A stretch of 64,000 bases of DNA from contig NZ_JAPZSV010000003.1 of assembly GCF_027532185.1 (NCBI RefSeq), positions 806,001-870,000 of the forward strand, read 5' to 3'. Numbering within the stretch: position 1 is the first letter of the stretch; each line of letters starts with the position of its first letter. Shown here in pieces: positions 53,574 through 62,249 of this stretch. The DNA is from Hylemonella sp. (GTDB lineage: Bacteria > Pseudomonadota > Gammaproteobacteria > Burkholderiales > Burkholderiaceae_C). The notes under the pieces are model-generated. The model did no database searches and was not told the origin of the DNA. It saw nothing but the letters and a program-made list of their open reading frames with translations. Made by a program: the position numbers and the translations under genes.

Positions 53574-55307
53574 TCAGGCCGCGTAACCCGGGTTGGGCAG
53601 CACGCCTTCGACCTTGGGCATGTTGAGCTGACGCGGCGCGACCTTGCCGCCGCGCGCGTTGAGCCAGGTCTCGACCACGTCCCACACCGGCTTGTTGCCG
53701 GCGTTGCGTGCCTCCTCAGCCACCGGCGCCCAGCCGGCCACCTTGTAGAGCTTGTCCGCCTCAATGCGCCGGCCCTTGAGCGTCATGTTGTCGATGCGCT
53801 GACCCATGCCGGCCATGGGGTTGCAGGTGTAGCTCAGGCCACCGACACGCACCATGTCGCCACCCTGCTGGTAATAGGGATCGGGATTGAAGAGGTTGTC
53901 GCAGACGTCTTCGAGCACGGTCTTGATCATGGCGCCGCTCATTTCGCTCACCGTGGCGTAGGAATAGGTGGTGGCCGTCATGTCCATGAGCCACTCGCGC
54001 GTGATGGCCTGGCCCGGCAGCAGGCTGGTGCCCCAGCGGAAACCGGGCGAAAAGGCCAGGTCCGCGCCCTGCACGTCCATCAGTGCATCGAGCAGCAGCT
54101 GGTCACCCGTGCCGTTGAAGTTGCCGCGGCGGTAGAGCGTGCCTTCGGTCACGGCCAGCACTTCATTGAGCTTGCCCTCATACGGCGCGCGGATCTTGGT
54201 GATCAGTGCGTCCATAGCGGGATCGGCGGGCAGCATGTTGGCGAAAATCGGCAAGAGCTTGTAGCGGAAGTCCACCACCTTCTTGTCCTTGACCTGGAAG
54301 TCGATCACGCCGAGGAACTTGCCGTTGGAGCCGGCGTTGGTGACGATGGTCTTGCCACCCTTGTTGCTCACGATGCTCGCCACGGGCATGCCGTCGTGCG
54401 TGTGGCCGCCCAGGATGGCGTCGATGCCGCTGACACGGCTGGCCATCTTGAGGTCTACATCCATGCCGTTGTGCGAGAGCACCACGACGAGCTGCGCGCC
54501 CTTGCCACGCGCCTCGTCCACCACCTTCTGCATGTTCTCGTCCTGGATGCCGAAGGACCAGTCGGCCACCATGTAGCGCGGGTTGGCGATGGGGGTGTAG
54601 GGGAAGGCCTGACCGATGATGGCGCAGGGTACGCCGTTGATCTCGCGGATCACATAGGGCTTGAACACCGGGTCACCGAAGTCGGTGGTGGTGACGTTCT
54701 GCGCCACGAAGTCCACCTTGCCCGCGAAGTCCTTCTCGATGATTTCCTTCACGCGCTCCATGCCGTAGGTGAATTCCCAGTGGCCGGTCATCACGTCCAC
54801 GCCCAGCAACTTGCAGGCGTCGACCATGTCCTTCGCGTTGGTCCACAGCGAGGTGGCGCTGCCCTGCCAGGTGTCGCCGCCGTCGAGCAGCAGCGCGCCG
54901 GGCCGGCTGGCCTTGAGGCGTTGCACCAGGGTGGACAGGTGGGCGAAGCCGCCGACCTTGCCGTAGCGTTGTGCGGCCTTCTCGAAGTCCAGGTAGGTCA
55001 GCGCATGCGCCTCAGCCGTGCCCGGGCGCACCTTGGCCACCTTGAGCAGGTGCTCGCCCACGAGGTGCGGCAGGCGGCCCTTCATGCTGGCGATGCCCAG
55101 ATTCACATTGGGTTCGCGGAAGTGTATGGGTTTGAGCTGCGCGTGGCAGTCGGTCATGTGCAGCAGGGACACATTGCCGAATTTCGGGATGTCATAGAGG
55201 CCCTGCGCCGCGGTCGCCGCGTCGGCCTCGGCGTAGGTACCCAGGCCCATGCCCGCCATGGTGCCGGCGCCCAGCACCTGCATGAATTCGCGCTTGGAGA
55301 GATTCAT
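53574..55307 (-). CDS. soxB: Thiosulfohydrolase SoxB
   Basis: A 577-residue dimanganese metallophosphatase-fold enzyme that hydrolyses sulfate from SoxY-bound cysteine S-thiosulfonate in the periplasm. A Tat-like leader (SKREFMQVLGAGTMAGMGLG, KR rather than RR) precedes the metal motifs: LLHMTDCHAQLKP, LLLDGGDTWQGS, MTGHWEFTYG, VVVLSHNGMDVD and ILGGHTHDGMP. The C-terminal 5'-nucleotidase-like domain includes the RWGTSLLPGQAITREWL segment. It ends the sox operon. Confidence 0.97.
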   Translation of the reverse strand: MNLSKREFMQVLGAGTMAGMGLGTYAEADAATAAQGLYDIPKFGNVSLLHMTDCHAQLKPIHFREPNVNLGIASMKGRLPHLVGEHLLKVAKVRPGTAEAHALTYLDFEKAAQRYGKVGGFAHLSTLVQRLKASRPGALLLDGGDTWQGSATSLWTNAKDMVDACKLLGVDVMTGHWEFTYGMERVKEIIEKDFAGKVDFVAQNVTTTDFGDPVFKPYVIREINGVPCAIIGQAFPYTPIANPRYMVADWSFGIQDENMQKVVDEARGKGAQLVVVLSHNGMDVDLKMASRVSGIDAILGGHTHDGMPVASIVSNKGGKTIVTNAGSNGKFLGVIDFQVKDKKVVDFRYKLLPIFANMLPADPAMDALITKIRAPYEGKLNEVLAVTEGTLYRRGNFNGTGDQLLLDALMDVQGADLAFSPGFRWGTSLLPGQAITREWLMDMTATTYSYATVSEMSGAMIKTVLEDVCDNLFNPDPYYQQGGDMVRVGGLSYTCNPMAGMGQRIDNMTLKGRRIEADKLYKVAGWAPVAEEARNAGNKPVWDVVETWLNARGGKVAPRQLNMPKVEGVLPNPGYAA

Positions 55308-55375: not shown

Positions 55376-56035
55376 TTACTGGTTGACGGGCGACTTGGGA
55401 TCGAGCAGCAGGGCCATGATGTGCCGCATCTGCGTCTCGGTCAGCACGCCCTTGTGGCCGGCGCGCGGCATCTGCGAGCAGGCGTTGTAGGCCCGTGCGT
55501 TGTAAATCTTGCCCCAGGTGTACTGGATGATGGCGGCCGACTCGGGCGCGTAGAGATTGCTCACGCCGCGGATCTTGCCGTAGTTGTAGAGGCTCGGGCC
55601 CAGGGTACCGAAGGAGATTTCTTCCTTGCTGATCTGGTGGCAGTTGTAGCAGTTGCCGCCGTTCTCGCTGCCGGCCGCATCGGTCCAGGTCATGCCACGG
55701 CCGCTCTGGGCGATCTTCTCGCCCTCCTTCCAGTCGCCGATGTACTGGCCACCGGCGGGCCACTTGATGGTCGCCATGTTCTGGGCCTCGATGGCCTTGG
55801 CCCACTTTTCGTCGATGGGTTTGCCGGCCACATCGGCCTTCATGCACTCGCGGTTGGCGTCGTCGAGCACCAGGCGGTCCATCTTGGCCTGGCCCTGGTC
55901 GCGGAAAGAGGCCTGCATGATGTCGGCCGTCTTCTTGTCAAGTTCCGCGCTGCTGGGCAGGCTGGCACAGCCGGCCACGAAGACGGCCGCCACGGCGACC
56001 GCCGCAGCGGTGATGTATTGCGTCTGTTTTTTCAT
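55376..56035 (-). CDS. soxX: Thiosulfate oxidation cytochrome c subunit SoxX
   Basis: A 219-residue monoheme cytochrome with lipobox-like signal (AVFVAGCASLP) and heme motif NCYNCHQ near residue 128, with the likely axial methionine in ACSQMPRAGHKG. Long N-terminal extension before the heme domain as in type-II SoxX. With SoxA it oxidatively joins thiosulfate to the SoxY cysteine. Confidence 0.95.
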   Translation of the reverse strand: MKKQTQYITAAAVAVAAVFVAGCASLPSSAELDKKTADIMQASFRDQGQAKMDRLVLDDANRECMKADVAGKPIDEKWAKAIEAQNMATIKWPAGGQYIGDWKEGEKIAQSGRGMTWTDAAGSENGGNCYNCHQISKEEISFGTLGPSLYNYGKIRGVSNLYAPESAAIIQYTWGKIYNARAYNACSQMPRAGHKGVLTETQMRHIMALLLDPKSPVNQ

Positions 56036-56050: not shown

Positions 56051-56845
56051 TCAGCGCTTGATGGCCGGCGCGATGTTCTCGGCGCCCTTGGCGTTGACGC
56101 CCATGAAGGTGCCCAGGGCCACAGTGGCCTCGCTGCCGAAGAGCGGGGCCGGGAAACGCTGCTGGCGATAGCAGTCGTTGAGGCGCAGCTGCATGCTCCA
56201 CATCTGGCCGTTGGACACACGGTAAGCCGGCCAGGCGGCAAAGCCGATGCCGTCGCCCGGGTTCTTGGTCAGGTTGGGCAGGTCCTGCAAACGGATGCGC
56301 TTGCCGTCTTCACCGTGGCAGGACGCGCAGGAGAAATCGTGCGAGCCGCCGCGCATGTAGAAAATGCGCTTGCCGACTTCGTACATGACCTTTTCCTGCT
56401 CATGGCTCTGAGGCAGGTTGAACTTGAGGCCGCGCGATTCGGCGGCGATCCAGGTCGCCAGCGCCGTCACATTGGCCATCTCGCCGCGTCCGAAAGGCGT
56501 CTTGGCAATCTCGGCACCGTTGAAGCCTTGCAGCGTCTCCATACAGGTCACGAGGCGTGACTCCAGATCCTGAACCTGCTTGGTATCAGCGAAGTACCGG
56601 GGCAACTCCACGAAGGCGCCCTTGACCACGCCCGGACCCTTGCCCAGATCGCACTTTTCCAGCGACACGTTCTTGGGACCGCGCTTCTGCTTCCAGAGGT
56701 CTTCCCCCTTGGCTTCAAAAAGTTCGGCGGGGTTGCCGTCGGCCAGCATGGCGCGGTATTCAGCAATACCGTCGGCGGCGGATTTCTGCGCCAGCGCGGG
56801 GACGCTGATCAGCGTGGCCGCGAGGGCCAGGGTCCAACGTTTCAT
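56051..56845 (-). CDS. soxA: L-cysteine S-thiosulfotransferase subunit SoxA (monoheme)
   Basis: A 264-residue cytochrome with a signal peptide (ALAATLISVPALAQ). Only one heme motif is present, CASCH near residue 178; the N-terminal domain keeps two non-heme cysteines (SLEKCD and LVTCMETL) in place of the first heme of diheme SoxA proteins. The active-site cysteine that coordinates the catalytic heme is in LRLNDCYRQQRF. The ATG at 56845 is used; a terminator separates it from soxZ. Confidence 0.95.
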   Translation of the reverse strand: MKRWTLALAATLISVPALAQKSAADGIAEYRAMLADGNPAELFEAKGEDLWKQKRGPKNVSLEKCDLGKGPGVVKGAFVELPRYFADTKQVQDLESRLVTCMETLQGFNGAEIAKTPFGRGEMANVTALATWIAAESRGLKFNLPQSHEQEKVMYEVGKRIFYMRGGSHDFSCASCHGEDGKRIRLQDLPNLTKNPGDGIGFAAWPAYRVSNGQMWSMQLRLNDCYRQQRFPAPLFGSEATVALGTFMGVNAKGAENIAPAIKR

Positions 56846-56875
56846 GTGTGTCACCTCGTCTTTTGTTGTGCAAGC

Positions 56876-56922: not shown

Positions 56923-57234
56923 TCAGGACACCGTTGCTTCGTCGGTGCGGCTGTCGCCCTTGTTGTCCTTCCAGCTCACGCTGATCTTGTCGCCAGCCTT
57001 GGCGCCCTTGACCACGAACTGCATGAAGGGGTTCTTGGAAACCGCCGGCCCCCACTCGGCGGTCAGCACGACCTTGCCGTTGTGGGAGGCGGTGACTTCA
57101 CTGATGAACCAGGCGGGAATGGTCTTGCCAGCCGCGTCCTTGCGCTGACCGGTTTCCATTTCGTGGCTCATGAGTACGCGCACGGTGGCCTTGTCGCCAG
57201 CGGCTTGCGCGCGGATGCGCATCGGATCTGCCAT
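56923..57234 (-). CDS. soxZ: Thiosulfate oxidation carrier complex protein SoxZ
   Basis: The 103-residue immunoglobulin-like partner of SoxY. It shows MRIRAQAAGDKATVRVLMSHEMETGQRKDAAGKTIPAWFI and KNPFMQFVVKGAKAGDKISVSWKDNKGD, the family pattern. There is no signal peptide; it is exported as a complex with SoxY by the Tat route in known systems. It lies 50 bases downstream of soxY. Confidence 0.95.
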   Translation of the reverse strand: MADPMRIRAQAAGDKATVRVLMSHEMETGQRKDAAGKTIPAWFISEVTASHNGKVVLTAEWGPAVSKNPFMQFVVKGAKAGDKISVSWKDNKGDSRTDEATVS

Positions 57235-57284: not shown

Positions 57285-57743
57285 TCAGCCGCCGCAGCCA
57301 CCCAGCGTGACCTTGACTTCCTTCTTCGCGAAGTAGGCCTTGCCGTCGGTCGTCAGGGCCACGGCGTAGACGTCGGAAGACTGGCCCATCTTGGCGCGCG
57401 TGGCGAAGCTGGGTTCGACGGCGTCGTTCACATTGAAGATCGCCACCAGCGCGCTGGGGTTCTTCTCGACCAGCAGAAGCAGGCGCTTGACGCCGGGCAG
57501 CGTGGTGCTGGCCGACAGCGGCACCACCGCACCGTTCTCGGCGATATCCGGGCCACCAATGGTGACGTCCTTGCTCTCCACGGGCGCTGCGCCACCCAAG
57601 GCCTTGACCACGTCGGCCGGGGTCTTGGCATCGAAGGCAGCCTTCTCGTAGGCCAGAGCCTGCTGCGGCAACAGACCACCGGCGGAAGCCAGCAGACCCG
57701 CCACCACGGCGCTCTGTTTCAGTGTCTCGCGACGAGTTTGCAT
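57285..57743 (-). CDS. soxY: Thiosulfate oxidation carrier protein SoxY
   Basis: A 152-residue substrate carrier with a Tat leader (TRRETLKQSAVVAGLLASAGG) and the C-terminal swinging arm GGCGG, whose cysteine carries the sulfur intermediates. The ATG at 57743 follows AAGGAGAGACAC; the track's earlier ATG adds eight residues ahead of the twin arginines and is less likely. A possible internal promoter lies upstream (motif at 57793). Confidence 0.96.
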   Translation of the reverse strand: MQTRRETLKQSAVVAGLLASAGGLLPQQALAYEKAAFDAKTPADVVKALGGAAPVESKDVTIGGPDIAENGAVVPLSASTTLPGVKRLLLLVEKNPSALVAIFNVNDAVEPSFATRAKMGQSSDVYAVALTTDGKAYFAKKEVKVTLGGCGG

Positions 57744-57792
57744 GTGTCTCTCCTTGAATAAGTCCATGCTAATGAAAAAAACTATCCTGCCC

Positions 57793-57821: not shown

Positions 57822-58907
57822 CTATTTTCCCGCACCCGCGGCCAACCATTGCGCCAGGGTCTTTGCATCTGCCTCAGGCAGCGACTGGGCAGGCATGGGG
57901 ATGGGCCCCCAGACACCGGCGCTGCCACTCTTGATCTTGCCCGCGAGGTAATCACTCTTGCCGGCGTGCTTCTTGGCGATCTCGGCAAAGCTCGGGCCCA
58001 CGAGCTTGCGGTCCATGGCGTGGCAGGCCGTACAGCTGTACTTGGACAGCATCGCCTGCACCGCCTTGGTATCGACACCGCCCTCGGCTTTTGCTCCAGG
58101 CCGGGTCTCAGCCCTCGCCGGTGCCGCAGCCACCACCGCAGCAGCGGCACCCGCCCCCTTGGGCTCGGGCTTGCTGGTGTCCGCACCGCGCTGTGCACCG
58201 ACCAGGCGGTTCTGTTCCGCGAGGTTGCCGTGCGCATCGCGTGCATAGTCGGGCAGATAGGAGGCCACGCGCGCCTCGGTTGCGCAGTCCTTCATGCAAG
58301 CGACCGCCCGCACATCGGGCTGCGGCGCCTTGCTGCCGAACTCCCGGCCGGGCCAGAGCGCATGATCGGTCGTCATCCCGTTGCGATTGGGCATGCGCTG
58401 CTGCACCTCGGCGATGTTCTTCTCCGACAGCACGTAGTTGTCGGGCACGATGCCGCCCAGGTTGAGCAGGAAGGCCGTGACCGCGTACACCTCTTCGGTG
58501 CTCAGCGACTTCGGGGCGTTCCAGGGCATGGCGCGGTTGATGTAGTCCCACAGCGTCGAGACCGTGGGTACCTTCATCAGCGTGGTCCGCCCGGGGAAAT
58601 CGGCGCGCTTGAGATTGGCCACGCGACCGGTCTTGATGTCCTCGGCCGTGGTGCCACCGACCAGCGGACTGAACACCTCGCCCGATTCGCCGAAGATGCC
58701 ATGGCAGCTCGCGCACTTGCCCTCCCACACCTCCTGGCCCTTGGCCACGCTGCCCGAGCCCGCGGGCAGGCCCTTGAAGTCGGGACGCACATCGATGTCC
58801 CAGGCCGCGACTTCCTTGGCCGTGGCATCGCGTCCCACACCCGGAAACTTGCTGCCCTGTGCCTGCGCCGTTCCGAGCGCAATAAACAGGGCCAGCGCCA
58901 ACAGCAT
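57822..58907 (-). CDS. soxD: Sulfur dehydrogenase diheme cytochrome SoxD
   Basis: A 361-residue c-type cytochrome that takes electrons from SoxC. After a signal peptide (LLALALFIALGTAQAQ) there are two cytochrome c domains with CASCH near residue 65 and CTACH near residue 295, joined by an alanine/proline-rich linker. MNRxGMTTDHALWP-like and VACMKDC segments match SoxD. The ATG at 58907 is chosen; the longer track frame reads through repeat B. Odd: the GGAG sits immediately against this ATG. Confidence 0.9.
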   Translation of the reverse strand: MLLALALFIALGTAQAQGSKFPGVGRDATAKEVAAWDIDVRPDFKGLPAGSGSVAKGQEVWEGKCASCHGIFGESGEVFSPLVGGTTAEDIKTGRVANLKRADFPGRTTLMKVPTVSTLWDYINRAMPWNAPKSLSTEEVYAVTAFLLNLGGIVPDNYVLSEKNIAEVQQRMPNRNGMTTDHALWPGREFGSKAPQPDVRAVACMKDCATEARVASYLPDYARDAHGNLAEQNRLVGAQRGADTSKPEPKGAGAAAAVVAAAPARAETRPGAKAEGGVDTKAVQAMLSKYSCTACHAMDRKLVGPSFAEIAKKHAGKSDYLAGKIKSGSAGVWGPIPMPAQSLPEADAKTLAQWLAAGAGK

Positions 58908-58965
58908 CTCCGCTACGCGACCACGCGAGGCGCGACGCGCGACACAAGAAACAGCGTTATCGAGG

Positions 58966-59058
58966 AACGCCGTGGAACTGGCTTTGCCGGTCCACTGGCG
59001 TTGCCCCCTGGAGGGGGGTGGCGAAGCGAACGCAGGGAGCGCAGCCTGGGGGTGCTCA
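58966..59058. repeat. Intergenic repeat family B, copy 2
   Basis: The same landmarks as 24001-24093: CGTGGAACTGGCTTTGCCGG, the hairpin CCCCCTGGAGGGGG, and GCAGGGAGCGCAGCCTGGGGGTG, ending at the soxC stop codon (CTCA). It separates soxC from soxD. Confidence 0.85.
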
Positions 59059-60417
59059 CGATACCTGGACATTTTTCACCTCCCCGCTTTCCTGCACCAG
59101 CCAGGACTGGATGGCGTTGTTGTGATAAATCGAGCGCGTGCCGCGTACCGCGCGCAGCTGCTTGTAGGTGGGCTGCACATAGCCTGTCTCGTCGGTGGCA
59201 CGGCTCTGGATGATGGCTGGCTTGCCGTCCCAGACCCAGTCGATGTTGAAGCGGGTCAGCGCTTTGCTCAGCACGGGAGACTCCAGCCGGGCGCGGCGCC
59301 AGTTGCGTCCGCCGTCCACCGACACGTCGACATGCTTGACCTTGCCGCGACCGGACCAGGCCAGACCACTGACGTTGTAGAAACCCTTGTCGAGCAGCAC
59401 CTGGCCGCCCGAGGGCGTGGTGACCACGCTCTTGCATTCCTGGATGCTGCTGTACTGGCGATGCAGGCCGTTGGGCATGAGGTCCACGTAGTGGATGGCC
59501 TCGTCCTTGGCCGCCCAGGGCTGGTCGCCCAGCTCGATGCGGCGCAGGTACTTGACCCAGCTCACGCCCTGCACGCCCGGCACGACGAGGCGCAGCGGGT
59601 AGCCCTGCTCGGGCCGCAGCATCTCGCCGTTCTGGCCATAGGCCACGAACACCTCGCCCGACTTGATCAGGTCCATGGGGATGGTGCGCGTCATCGAGGA
59701 ACCGTCGGCTCCCTCGGCGAGCACGAACTTGCCGTTCTTCAGATCAGCGCCGGCGAGTTCGAGCAGCGTGATCAGCGGCACGCCGGTGAACTCGCTGCAC
59801 GAGAGCATGCCGTGCGTGTACTGCACGGTGGGCACGGCCACATTGCCCCACTCCATGCCGGTGTTGGCGCCGCACTCGATGAAGTGAAAGCGCGAGACCG
59901 AGGGCAGGCGCATGATCTCGTCCATCGTGAAGACCTTGGCGGCCTTGACCATGCCGTTGACCATGAGGCGGTGCTTGGACGGGTCGATGTCCCACCAGCC
60001 CTGGTGGTGGCGCTCGAAATGCAGGCCGCTGGGCGTGACGATGCCGAACAGCGACTGCAGCGGCGCGAAGGACACCGAAGCCTGCGTGGTCTGCGTGAGG
60101 CCCGGGCTCTGGCGGCGCTGCACATTGCTCTCGAACTTCGAGGGCTTGCCGTAGCCATCGGTGGCCACGCTCTGGCCCAGGCCCGTCGTGTGCTCGGGCA
60201 GGTTCAGGATGTTGGGGTCGCCGCCCTCGGCCGGCACCGGGTTGCTCTGCGCCAGCGCGTGGGCACCGGTCGCACCAGCCGCCGCCGCCGCAAACGCGTT
60301 GCGGATGAAGTTGCGGCGGCCCTGTTTGGCCTCGGCCATGACGGTGCGGATGCCGTCGGGCTTGAGAAAACTCTCGGGTGCCTTGCGTAGGCGGCCCGAA
60401 CTCATGGAATCGTGCAT
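59056..60417 (-). CDS. soxC: Sulfite/sulfur dehydrogenase molybdenum subunit SoxC
   Basis: A 453-residue molybdopterin protein of the sulfite-oxidase family, working with SoxD to oxidise the SoxY-bound sulfane sulfur. It has a Tat leader (GRRNFIRNAFAAAAAGATGAHALA), the molybdenum cysteine in FHFIECGANTG near residue 192, and the dimerisation domain with VSVDGGRNWRRARLESP. The ATG at 60417 follows GCAGGAGCAGGAC; the track's GTG ten codons earlier is unlikely. Confidence 0.95.
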   Translation of the reverse strand: MHDSMSSGRLRKAPESFLKPDGIRTVMAEAKQGRRNFIRNAFAAAAAGATGAHALAQSNPVPAEGGDPNILNLPEHTTGLGQSVATDGYGKPSKFESNVQRRQSPGLTQTTQASVSFAPLQSLFGIVTPSGLHFERHHQGWWDIDPSKHRLMVNGMVKAAKVFTMDEIMRLPSVSRFHFIECGANTGMEWGNVAVPTVQYTHGMLSCSEFTGVPLITLLELAGADLKNGKFVLAEGADGSSMTRTIPMDLIKSGEVFVAYGQNGEMLRPEQGYPLRLVVPGVQGVSWVKYLRRIELGDQPWAAKDEAIHYVDLMPNGLHRQYSSIQECKSVVTTPSGGQVLLDKGFYNVSGLAWSGRGKVKHVDVSVDGGRNWRRARLESPVLSKALTRFNIDWVWDGKPAIIQSRATDETGYVQPTYKQLRAVRGTRSIYHNNAIQSWLVQESGEVKNVQVS

Positions 60418-60478
60418 GTCCTGCTCCTGCGGTGGCGCGCTGCGCACGGCACCTGTGGCTGTTAAATCAAAATATCAG

Positions 60479-60490
60479 CAAGTACTAATA
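60479..60490 (-). promoter_or_regulatory. Shared sox promoter motif, site 2 (soxC upstream)
   Basis: On the minus strand TATTAGTACTTG, matching site 1 at 57793 in 11 of 12 bases. It lies in an AT-rich stretch flanked by TGTTA and TAACA about 60-70 bases upstream of soxC, consistent with an operator. Confidence 0.5.
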
Positions 60491-60543
60491 TATAACAGAT
60501 CAAACCGGGATGGATCAGGGTTTCTACGGAGACCGGGCGGGCC

Positions 60544-60864
60544 TCAACGAGCGAAGCGGTAGTGGTCGCGGTTGAGCACCGCAGCCAAGGCCGTGACCTC
60601 TTCAGGGAACAGGCCCAGATTGAGCTCGGTGTTGCAGTGCTCCACCATGCCGCGCAGCAGGCCCGCGCTGTTGATGCGCCCATTGGGCCGGTAGATGGCG
60701 CTGCCATCACCCCCCACCTTCTGCTGGTGACAGGCCGCGCACTTGTGCTCGGCCAGCAGCTGCGCCCCCAGGCGCAGATCGGCCCCCTGGAAGATGGCCG
60801 GTTCCTGGGCCTGTGCGCTCAGAGCCCAGGCGGCTGCAATAAGGAGGAGGGACGGGCGGTGCAT
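60544..60864 (-). CDS. Small monoheme cytochrome c of the sox cluster
   Basis: A 106-residue secreted cytochrome with signal peptide (LLLIAAAWALSAQA) and heme motif KCAACH near residue 42, followed by the VGGDGSAIYRPNGRINSAGLLRGMVEHCNTELNLGLF segment. It lies 126 bases upstream of soxC in the same direction and may accept electrons from SoxCD or SoxAX. Not a recognised numbered sox subunit. Ribosome site weak. Confidence 0.82.
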   Translation of the reverse strand: MHRPSLLLIAAAWALSAQAQEPAIFQGADLRLGAQLLAEHKCAACHQQKVGGDGSAIYRPNGRINSAGLLRGMVEHCNTELNLGLFPEEVTALAAVLNRDHYRFAR

Positions 60865-60961
60865 GGATACAAGGTTATACAAAGCTGTGGGCTCGAACAA
60901 GCGAAAACGGCGATGAATCTGGCAAACTGCCGGTTTCACGTCTGTCACACTCGAGCCCATC

Positions 60962-61276
60962 ATGTCGCGCAAGCCCGCCCCCGCCGCCGTAGCCGCCACG
61001 ACCGCCGCCGTCTTCCGTGCGGACCACCAGAAAGACGTGATCAACCGTCTGCGTCGCATCGAGGGCCAGGTCCGCGGCGTGGTGGAGATGATCCAGGAAG
61101 GCCGCAGCTGCGAGGACGTGGCCCTGCAGATGTCGGCCGCGCGCAAGGCCATGGACAAGGCTTTCTACCGCATGATGGCCTGCACCATGATCGAGGCCGT
61201 CAACGGCGCCGAGGACGAAGCGCGCGCCATGGAAGAGATCGAGCAGGCCACGCGCCTGCTGGAAAAATTCGGCTGA
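60962..61276 (+). CDS. CsoR/RcnR-family (DUF156) transcriptional regulator with two cysteines
   Basis: A 104-residue helical repressor with the family signature DVINRLRRIEGQVRGVVEMIQEGRSCEDVALQMSAARKAM. C50 matches the first ligand cysteine of CsoR/CstR, but the CsoR histidine (25 residues on) is T75, the distal cysteine (29 on) is A79, and a cysteine occurs at C74. Without the histidine, copper sensing is unlikely and thiol/persulfide sensing is more plausible. It is divergent from the sox genes, which suggests it controls them. Confidence 0.85.
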   Translation: MSRKPAPAAVAATTAAVFRADHQKDVINRLRRIEGQVRGVVEMIQEGRSCEDVALQMSAARKAMDKAFYRMMACTMIEAVNGAEDEARAMEEIEQATRLLEKFG

Positions 61277-61364: not shown

Positions 61365-62249
61365 TCAGCTCAGCCCCAGCACGCGACGGCGTCGCTCCAT
61401 CATGCGCCAGATGAAAGGCGTGAAGATCAGTTGCATCGCCAGCTCCATCTTGCCGCCGGGAATCACGATGGTGTTGGCCCGGCTCATCCATGAGTTGTCG
61501 ATCATGTTGAGCAGGTAGGGAAAGTCGATGCCCTTGGGGTTGGCAAAGCGGATCACCACCATGCTCTCGTCGGCCGAGGGGATATCGCGCGCGATGAAGG
61601 GGTTGGAGGTATCCACCACCGGCACGCGCTGGAAGTTCACGTGGGTGTGCGCAAACTGCGGCACGATGTAGTGCACATAGTCGGGCATGCGCCGCAGGAT
61701 GGTGTCGGTCACGGCCTCGGTACTGTAGCCGCGCTGATGCTTGTCACGCCAGAGCTTCTGGATCCACTCGAGGTTGATCACCGGCACCACACCGATGCGC
61801 AGGTCCGGGTACTGCGCGATGTTGTGCTCGGGCGTGACCATGGCACCGTGCAGACCCTCATAGAACAGCATCTCGGTGTCCGGCGGCAATTCCTCCCAGG
61901 GTGTGAAGGTGCCGGGCGCCTGGCCACATTCGGCCGCGTCGGCTTCGTGGTGCAGATAACGGCGCGTGCGGCCCTGACCCGAGGCGCCGTAACGGCGGAA
62001 CAGGTCTTCGAGTTCGGCAAAGAGATTGGACTCGGGACCGAAGTGACTGAAATGCTGGTCGCCGGCACGCTCGGCCTCGGCAGCGCGGCGCTCCATCTCG
62101 GCGCGGTCGTAGCGGTGGAAGCTGTCGCCTTCGACGATAGCCGCCTTCACGCCCTCACGGCGAAAGATGTTGGCAAAGGTCCGCGTGACGGTGGACGTGC
62201 CCGCGCCTGACGAGCCGGTGATGGCGATGATGGGATGACGTTCAGACAC
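61365..62249 (-). CDS. cbbP: Phosphoribulokinase
   Basis: A 294-residue proteobacterial-type phosphoribulokinase that makes ribulose 1,5-bisphosphate for RuBisCO. The P-loop ITGSSGAGTSTVTRTF is at residues 9-24, EGDSFHRYDRAEM near 40, HFGPESNLFAELE near 70, and LFYEGLHGAMVTPEHNIAQYPDLRIGVVPVINLEW in the middle. The start is GTG at 62249. It is evidence for the Calvin cycle together with cbbY and cbbR. Confidence 0.96.
   Translation of the reverse strand: MSERHPIIAITGSSGAGTSTVTRTFANIFRREGVKAAIVEGDSFHRYDRAEMERRAAEAERAGDQHFSHFGPESNLFAELEDLFRRYGASGQGRTRRYLHHEADAAECGQAPGTFTPWEELPPDTEMLFYEGLHGAMVTPEHNIAQYPDLRIGVVPVINLEWIQKLWRDKHQRGYSTEAVTDTILRRMPDYVHYIVPQFAHTHVNFQRVPVVDTSNPFIARDIPSADESMVVIRFANPKGIDFPYLLNMIDNSWMSRANTIVIPGGKMELAMQLIFTPFIWRMMERRRRVLGLS

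Follow-up and report, generated by a model that had tools for sequence, protein, structure and literature searches.

A CsoR-family clade with a cysteine at +24 and a likely role in sulfur sensing, represented near a sox cluster in Hylemonella sp.

Introduction

In proteobacteria, the known regulators of thiosulfate and sulfide oxidation belong mostly to the ArsR family (SoxR, SqrR, BigR) and the sigma-54 family (FisR). The first CsoR-family regulator of a sox system to be described is TTHA1953 of Thermus thermophilus, which carries the cysteine pair C39/C68 and, when kept reduced, still binds DNA if copper, nickel or cobalt is present (PMC10318464). ScCsoR (SCO0620) of Streptomyces coelicolor is an experimentally tested sulfane-sulfur repressor that recognises the operator ATACC-n6-GGTAT and needs both of its cysteines, of which only C37 is persulfidated (PMC7533328). 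In the literature searched, which takes in few of the subscription journals, we found neither a pattern in which the second cysteine stands 24 residues after the first (+24) nor a link between proteobacterial CsoR proteins and sulfur; a description of such a clade in the 2021 CsoR-family survey (Fakhoury), which lies outside that literature, is possible.

Here we analyse a csoR-family gene in a 64,000-nucleotide stretch of the genome of Hylemonella sp. (the window). A first-pass annotation of the same DNA had proposed that its product, with a histidine-free pair of cysteines and a gene beside thiosulfate oxidation genes, senses persulfide or sulfite. We find that the protein belongs to a well-supported clade with this cysteine pattern, that relatives of its gene share an operator of characteristic spacing, and that this operator has been lost at the window locus.

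Results

The product has cysteines at positions 0 and +24 of the CsoR sensing site

The gene and its surroundings are listed in Table 1. In a profile search the product matches PF02583 (CsoR/RcnR, DUF156) with 76.8 bits (cut-off 22.8) over profile positions 2–77 of 78, which places it in the family. An AlphaFold2 model of the protein (mean pLDDT 85.6; helices 7–45, 50–82 and 86–103) predicts the three-helix fold of solved CsoR/RcnR members, and its top structural matches in the PDB are CstR, InrS, FrmR and CsoR, with CstR the best.

Table 1. Features of the csoR–sox region of the window.
Feature	Position	Strand	Remarks
soxB	53574..55307	-	TIGR04486
soxX	55376..56035	-	TIGR04485
soxA	56051..56860	-	TIGR04484
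soxZ	56923..57234	-	TIGR04490
soxY	57285..57767	-	TIGR04488
soxD-like cytochrome c ORF	57822..59072	-	Start uncertain; Pfam Cytochrom_C, position after soxC
soxC, sulfite (sulfane) dehydrogenase subunit	59056..60417	-	TIGR04555, 601.6 bits; start read from sequence
36-bp AT-rich block upstream of soxC	60462..60497		Identical in four genomes, flanks vary; from alignment
Small c-type cytochrome gene	60544..60864	-	CAACH motif; divergent from csoR; from sequence
csoR/cytochrome c intergenic region	60865..60961		N4 operator in DUF302-FadL relatives, none here
csoR-family repressor gene, '+24 Cys' type	60962..61276	+	104 aa, ATG start
Cys50 codon	61109..61111	+	Position 0 of CsoR sensing site; sequence and alignment
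Cys74 codon (+24)	61181..61183	+	From sequence; Cys at +24 clade-wide
Phosphoribulokinase gene	61365..62249	-	NF011997; convergent downstream neighbour of csoR, outside the unit

By its translation, the protein has a spacing of 24 residues from Cys50 to Cys74; position +25 is Thr75 and position +29 is Ala79. The alignment with solved members runs from Cys50 to +24 without a gap, so that the second cysteine is truly shifted; position +24 aligns with an Asp of CsoRGz (6ahx), one residue ahead of the ligand His of that protein. We take the residues at 0/+24/+25/+29 to be C/D/H/C in B. subtilis CsoR, C/E/N/C in S. aureus CstR, C/S/H/T in E. coli FrmR and C/G/H/H in RcnR. With Thr at +25 and Ala at +29, the window protein lacks both the copper-sensor ligand set of CsoR (Cys, +25 His, +29 Cys) and the Cys with +25 His of RcnR and FrmR, and with its second cysteine at +24 and Ala at +29 it departs from CstR (Cys, +29 Cys, non-His +25); it has instead the combination by which we define the +24-Cys clade, namely Cys50, a Cys at +24 and no +25 His. 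The first-pass annotation had read the pair and its Thr and Ala in the same way, as translation and gapless alignment bear out, and its reference patterns for CsoR and CstR agree with our alignment. The pattern is more than chance, since both cysteines are kept in 73/81 close relatives of the window csoR and the +24 Cys is found clade-wide.

The +24-Cys proteins form a supported clade

Of the 80 relatives that a scan of species genomes gave, almost every one comes from Burkholderiales or from a record titled only so, with one record titled Chitinophaga and one Gammaproteobacteria; canonical and distant members were added from 229 class, 300 order and 399 phylum genomes. Nearly every aligned protein has either a +24 Cys without a +25 His or a canonical pattern of the His and Cys/His type. 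A maximum-likelihood tree of 103 rows from PF02583 sets all sampled +24-Cys proteins apart from CsoR, RcnR, FrmR and CstR by a branch whose support is 100/98. The split still receives 98/97 when the four diagnostic columns are removed, and then encloses all 47 +24-Cys rows together with 13 others, nine of which were already clade members that have lost the +24 residue; the remaining four are canonical-pattern sequences and are probably long-branch misplacements. Inner forks of the tree are unreliable because the alignment is short in columns. Members of the clade are mostly beta- and gammaproteobacterial, and nearly all of them are without the +25 His and the +29 Cys/His. What the first-pass annotation had noticed in a single protein is thus the mark of one supported clade and no local oddity, and the +24-Cys proteins make up a branch of the CsoR family that is apparently undescribed and whose second sensing cysteine stands five residues ahead of its place in known sulfur sensors. 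One subgroup of the clade (family code f174; L126, L127, L129 and L131–L133) has no +24 Cys and in part no Cys50; no sulfur marker genes were seen near the two of its loci that were inspected (L185, L192), and it possibly responds to another signal.

Clade genes lie near sulfur genes more often than canonical ones

We compared the neighbours within 4 kb of 28 clade loci, mostly from outside the close Comamonadaceae set, with those of 19 canonical loci, counting as sulfur markers Sox, SQR, persulfide dioxygenase (PDO), rhodanese, TauE, YeeE-like proteins, TusA and DsrE2. Sulfur markers occur at 11/28 clade loci versus 0/19 canonical loci (Fisher p 0.0014), a test that is partly circular because the marker queries were drawn largely from the loci compared. 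Metal or formaldehyde markers show the converse, with 0/28 versus 13/19, and those for P-type ATPases or multicopper oxidases are found at none of the 28 clade loci and at nine of the 19 canonical ones. A separate Pfam scan gave the same contrast, with YgaP-like TM, DUF302, DUF6691, Lactamase_B, rhodanese, DsrE2 and TusA on the clade side and E1-E2 ATPase, HMA, multicopper oxidase and esterase on the canonical side. DUF302-FadL genes are also among the clade neighbours; frmA and metal ATPases are not. Our home-made gene caller produced spurious neighbours in GC-rich loci, and the main neighbour claims were re-checked by Pfam/NCBIfam or tblastn.

Individual loci place csoR within a soxC-soxD-soxY-Z-A-X-B-csoR-SulP run (L169/L237; soxD assigned by position), with SQR-TauE-PDO (L168), in a csoR-rhodanese-TauE-PDO run (L180) and in a TusA-csoR pair with a divergent DsrE2 gene (L177). 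Control of rhodanese, sqr, pdo and sulfite export, a trait of CstR, is hinted at by the neighbourhoods of L168, L180 and L183 and not by that of the window locus, among whose scanned neighbours the Pfam and NCBIfam profiles found no copper efflux genes. Seven of the 28 clade loci, including that of a paralog in the window's genome (L002), have RND efflux neighbours and no obvious sulfur genes, and several of the seven also hold YgaP-like or OsmC genes; the clade is therefore not purely one regulon.

Relatives share an operator with N4 spacing

The conserved partner of this csoR in relatives is a divergent gene for a DUF302 lipoprotein, followed by one for an OMPP1/FadL porin, and a strong palindrome separates csoR from the pair (for example CTACCCTATACCCTGTGGGGTAGGGTATT in L007). 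This N4-type operator (TACCC-N4-GGGTA) is present at 34 of the 36 loci with an adjacent DUF302 gene versus 0/45 without one, among 81 close relatives with the window included; the count allows up to one mismatch, and one of the 34 fits best as N5. Around wider-clade loci, 298 kb of sequence contain 11 exact TACCC-N4-GGGTA sites and none with any other spacing from 1 to 9, whereas 195 kb around canonical loci contain 11 exact TACCC-N5-GGGTA sites, no N4 site and one site with a spacing of 7. Read from TACC to GGTA, the N4 sites have an n6 spacing, equal to that of the ScCsoR operator. An exact N4 site occurs only once in the 5.1 Mb of the genome G091, 139 bp ahead of the soxC gene at the head of a sox operon that contains csoR. 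Taken with the neighbours and the operator spacing of the clade, this leads us to favour a reactive-sulfur-responsive repressor.

Exact TACCC-N4-GGGTA is rarer than its reversed control in most +24-Cys genomes (G000, which is the window's genome, G107, G091 and others; examples are 1 vs 10, 1 vs 13 and 1 vs 7), as if stray N4 sites were selected against. The csoR-DUF302-FadL arrangement itself is seen at L007, L008, L010, L012, L014, L017, L018 and many Hydrogenophaga and Tepidimonas loci. Loci of the Hydrogenophaga and Tepidimonas type have the unit without sox genes nearby. At those of the Curvibacter type it is followed on one strand by genes for a cytochrome c and an ArsR protein and by sox, so that the DUF302-FadL unit may head a longer operon there. 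The uncharacterised DUF302-FadL pair may serve to carry hydrophobic sulfur or sulfur compounds through the outer membrane.

The window lineage has lost the operator and kept the protein

At the window locus csoR adjoins soxC-D-Y-Z-A-X-B, as the first-pass annotation had it, except that the gene nearest to it is that for the small cytochrome c and not a sox gene. All of the sox genes but soxD pass curated NCBIfam models; the small cytochrome c gene is conserved in relatives L003–L018, the protein of one relative giving a weak Cytochrom_C match. The csoR locus has lost the DUF302, FadL and ArsR genes and the operator both in the window and in L003 and L004, the relatives nearest to it. A targeted search of the window's genome found no DUF302 gene elsewhere, and a similar search for this FadL, run without a positive control, found none either.

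The first-pass annotation had expected the protein to bind at 60865–60961 and 60418–60543. The DUF302-FadL partner is gone and these regions hold no TACCC-N4-GGGTA even with two mismatches, so that the expectation finds no support here; the window as a whole has no exact N4 site, and its six one-mismatch sites, none of them between 53 and 62 kb, are fewer than the 14.0 of shuffles. We therefore rejected an N4 operator in either region or elsewhere in the window. An operator of the TTHA1953 type (TACNNTACNNNNGTANNGTA) was not seen when the two regions were read by eye.

Other conserved stretches were considered as sites. The AT-rich block upstream of soxC contains no CsoR-type N4 site and could possibly be a promoter or an ArsR-type operator. 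A likeness between the region upstream of soxC and that upstream of soxT was rejected as a shared ArsR operator because it is not distinctive: its score of 25 was reached by 15/2000 shuffles, with other stretches of the window coming to 24. Three genomes share the block TGCATGGATACAAGGTTATACAAAGC at the start of the cytochrome c gene without a difference; it also spans a plausible promoter and start codon, and the genome offers no near match to its core. For GGATACAAGGTTATACA, a conserved block between csoR and the cytochrome c gene, the genome offers only 3-mismatch matches as further copies, so that it defines no regulon.

The window csoR is under strong purifying selection, with dN 0 and dS 0.31 against L003 and dN 0.015 and dS 0.28 against L004, so the protein most likely still works. 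With the conserved target and operator lost, it may act through a diverged site in the promoter between csoR and the cytochrome c gene or through one located elsewhere. Among the close relatives, cysteine loss is confined to loci of the operator-less kind (8/45 vs 0/36 DUF302 loci; Fisher p 0.008): their lineages have lost Cys74 (Hydrogenophaga) or Cys50 (Hylemonella), whereas all 36 DUF302 loci keep both, a contrast that lends weak support because the tree traces it to no more than about two or three losses.

A paralog and an ArsR gene lie elsewhere in the genome

The paralog L002 (G000:C13:303378-303716; L184:5367-5720) is a second +24-Cys csoR of the window's genome and stands at the end of an operon with a membrane-fusion protein, an RND pump and an OsmC-like ORF. 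At the start of this operon (L184:194-207) lies the one exact N4 site of the genome, against 10 matches to the reversed control pattern. About 47 kb beyond the end of the window (G000:C11:911000-924000; L198:2521-6292) is a sulfur-gene cluster with a SoxT/YeeE-type transporter, a cytochrome c, the flavocytochrome c sulfide dehydrogenase gene fccB, a DsrE-like secreted ORF and a SoxR/BigR-like ArsR gene. The last (L198:5912-6292) encodes a protein that is 54% identical to the ArsR protein beside soxC in relatives, scores 66.9 bits against the BigR model, which is below the model's cut-off, and in our reading has Cys residues at BigR/SqrR-like positions. In the Curvibacter-type sox clusters L007, L008, L010 and L014 an ATATTC-N8-GAATAT-like palindrome precedes arsR; it presumably resembles operators of the SqrR/BigR type.

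Discussion

We consider it probable that the window protein is a CsoR/RcnR-fold repressor of the '+24 Cys' type that binds N4 operators and is released from them by reactive sulfane sulfur at Cys50/Cys74. The analysis itself establishes the fold family, the clade, the conserved cysteines, the missing metal-ligand pattern, the sulfur neighbourhood, the operator type of the relatives and purifying selection in the window lineage. By analogy with CstR, ScCsoR and TTHA1953, the reduced protein would bind TACCC-N4-GGGTA operators and repress sulfur-handling genes; reactive sulfane sulfur would modify Cys50, Cys74 would take part through an inter-subunit sulfur bridge or as a stabiliser of the persulfide, and modification of the pair would release the DNA. 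A CstR-like bridge is not assured, because by our calculation an ideal helix would turn +24 some 120 degrees from the +25/+29 midpoint. More tentatively, and with the chances somewhat against it, the clade may be a separate class of reactive-sulfur sensor in which a CstR-type bridge is impossible, the +24 Cys lies on a different face of helix 2 and links sulfur chemistry to release from DNA by way of a different subunit interface, and the matched operator is one bp shorter than that of the metal sensors. At the level of the clade, a sulfur sensor with a new two-cysteine layout is likely. Thus the sensor proposed by the first-pass annotation is upheld in its His-free geometry, which differs from those of CsoR and CstR, and in its link to sulfur, though not in its local binding regions; of the two signals that it named, the clade points to persulfide or polysulfide, and nothing favours sulfite over persulfide.

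Control of sox in the window's genome is the weaker part of the case and stands unproven, the operator evidence of the relatives being missing here. The chance comes close to even that csoR has become detached from sox in this lineage, with the SoxR-type ArsR beside soxT and fccB running sox while csoR acts on remnant targets or overlaps with its paralog. The L198 protein, with its identity to the soxC-side ArsR, its cysteines, its BigR match and its SoxT and fccB neighbours, suits this role; SoxR is the demonstrated sox repressor in Hyphomicrobium (PMC10451225), the window sox genes are without a nearby N4 site, and the presence of the operator tracks DUF302 rather than sox. Set against this, csoR remains beside sox under purifying selection, the operator of the same clade fronts soxC in G091, the BigR match falls below the cut-off and the resemblance between the blocks upstream of soxC and soxT does not rise above the window background. 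That csoR is a decaying leftover without current function in the window lineage is improbable: its partner genes and operator are gone and one cysteine is missing from orphan copies in Hydrogenophaga and Hylemonella, but dN/dS is near 0 against L003 and L004 and both cysteines are kept.

Readings that change the signal appear less probable than sulfane sulfur. A general thiol or redox sensor, responsive to peroxide, quinone or electrophiles, is unlikely, since recognisable clade neighbours are mostly genes for sulfur transport, transfer and oxidation; it would fit the peroxiredoxin-like gene that, in our reading, adjoins clade member L194 and the behaviour of TTHA1953, whose affinity for DNA is lost when H2O2 or Cu(II) causes a disulfide to form and which showed no response to NaHS in vitro (PMC10318464). 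Least probable of all is a metal sensor (copper, nickel, cobalt or zinc) whose set of ligands is unusual. The Pfam family bears the name 'metal-sensitive transcriptional repressor', the C50 and C74 thiolates could bind a soft metal and several clade members adjoin RND efflux genes, yet nearly the whole clade is without the +25 His and +29 Cys/His, and the P-type ATPase and multicopper oxidase markers of the canonical loci do not occur within 4 kb of the 28 clade loci. The copper or nickel response that the first-pass annotation had named as counting against its proposal is thus unlikely, with no +25 His/+29 Cys and no metal-export marker within 4 kb of the 28 members, and we rejected the copper/nickel reading on ligands and neighbours.

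If the class of +24-Cys sulfur sensors is real, its distinct operator code would allow regulons to be predicted from sequence, and the natural +24, +29 and single-Cys variants amount to a clean test of the site geometry that a persulfide sensor needs. The uncharacterised DUF302-FadL pair would become tied to a candidate sulfur regulon.

Among known systems, CsoR, RcnR, InrS and FrmR share the Pfam family and fold with the window protein and differ in their metal or formaldehyde sites and neighbours, the sampled canonical loci being N5-spaced. SoxR and sHdrR of the ArsR family address the same problem, sulfane-sulfur-responsive repression of sox (PMC10451225, PMC12423496), but with an unrelated fold and operator; a homologue is present in the window's genome outside the window. 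YrkD of Bacillus licheniformis is likewise a CsoR-family sulfane-sulfur repressor, of an sqr-pdo cluster, but is CstR-like, sharing about 50% identity and the two conserved cysteines with CstR (PMC9918477). ScCsoR has pdo, rhodanese and sulfite transporter neighbours, as do some clade members, and an operator spacing equal to N4, whereas its pair is C37/C66 (+29) with only C37 persulfidated (PMC7533328). TTHA1953 is a two-cysteine CsoR-family protein that represses a sox system, yet its C39/C68 pair is of the +29 type, it binds TACNNTACNNNNGTANNGTA and its gene lies far from sox (PMC10318464). CstR (S. aureus; S. pneumoniae 7mq1) has the same fold, two cysteines and no +25 His, and it controls sulfur genes, as members of the clade may; its second Cys is at +29 as against +24 here, and the +24 clade stands apart from it in the sequence tree.
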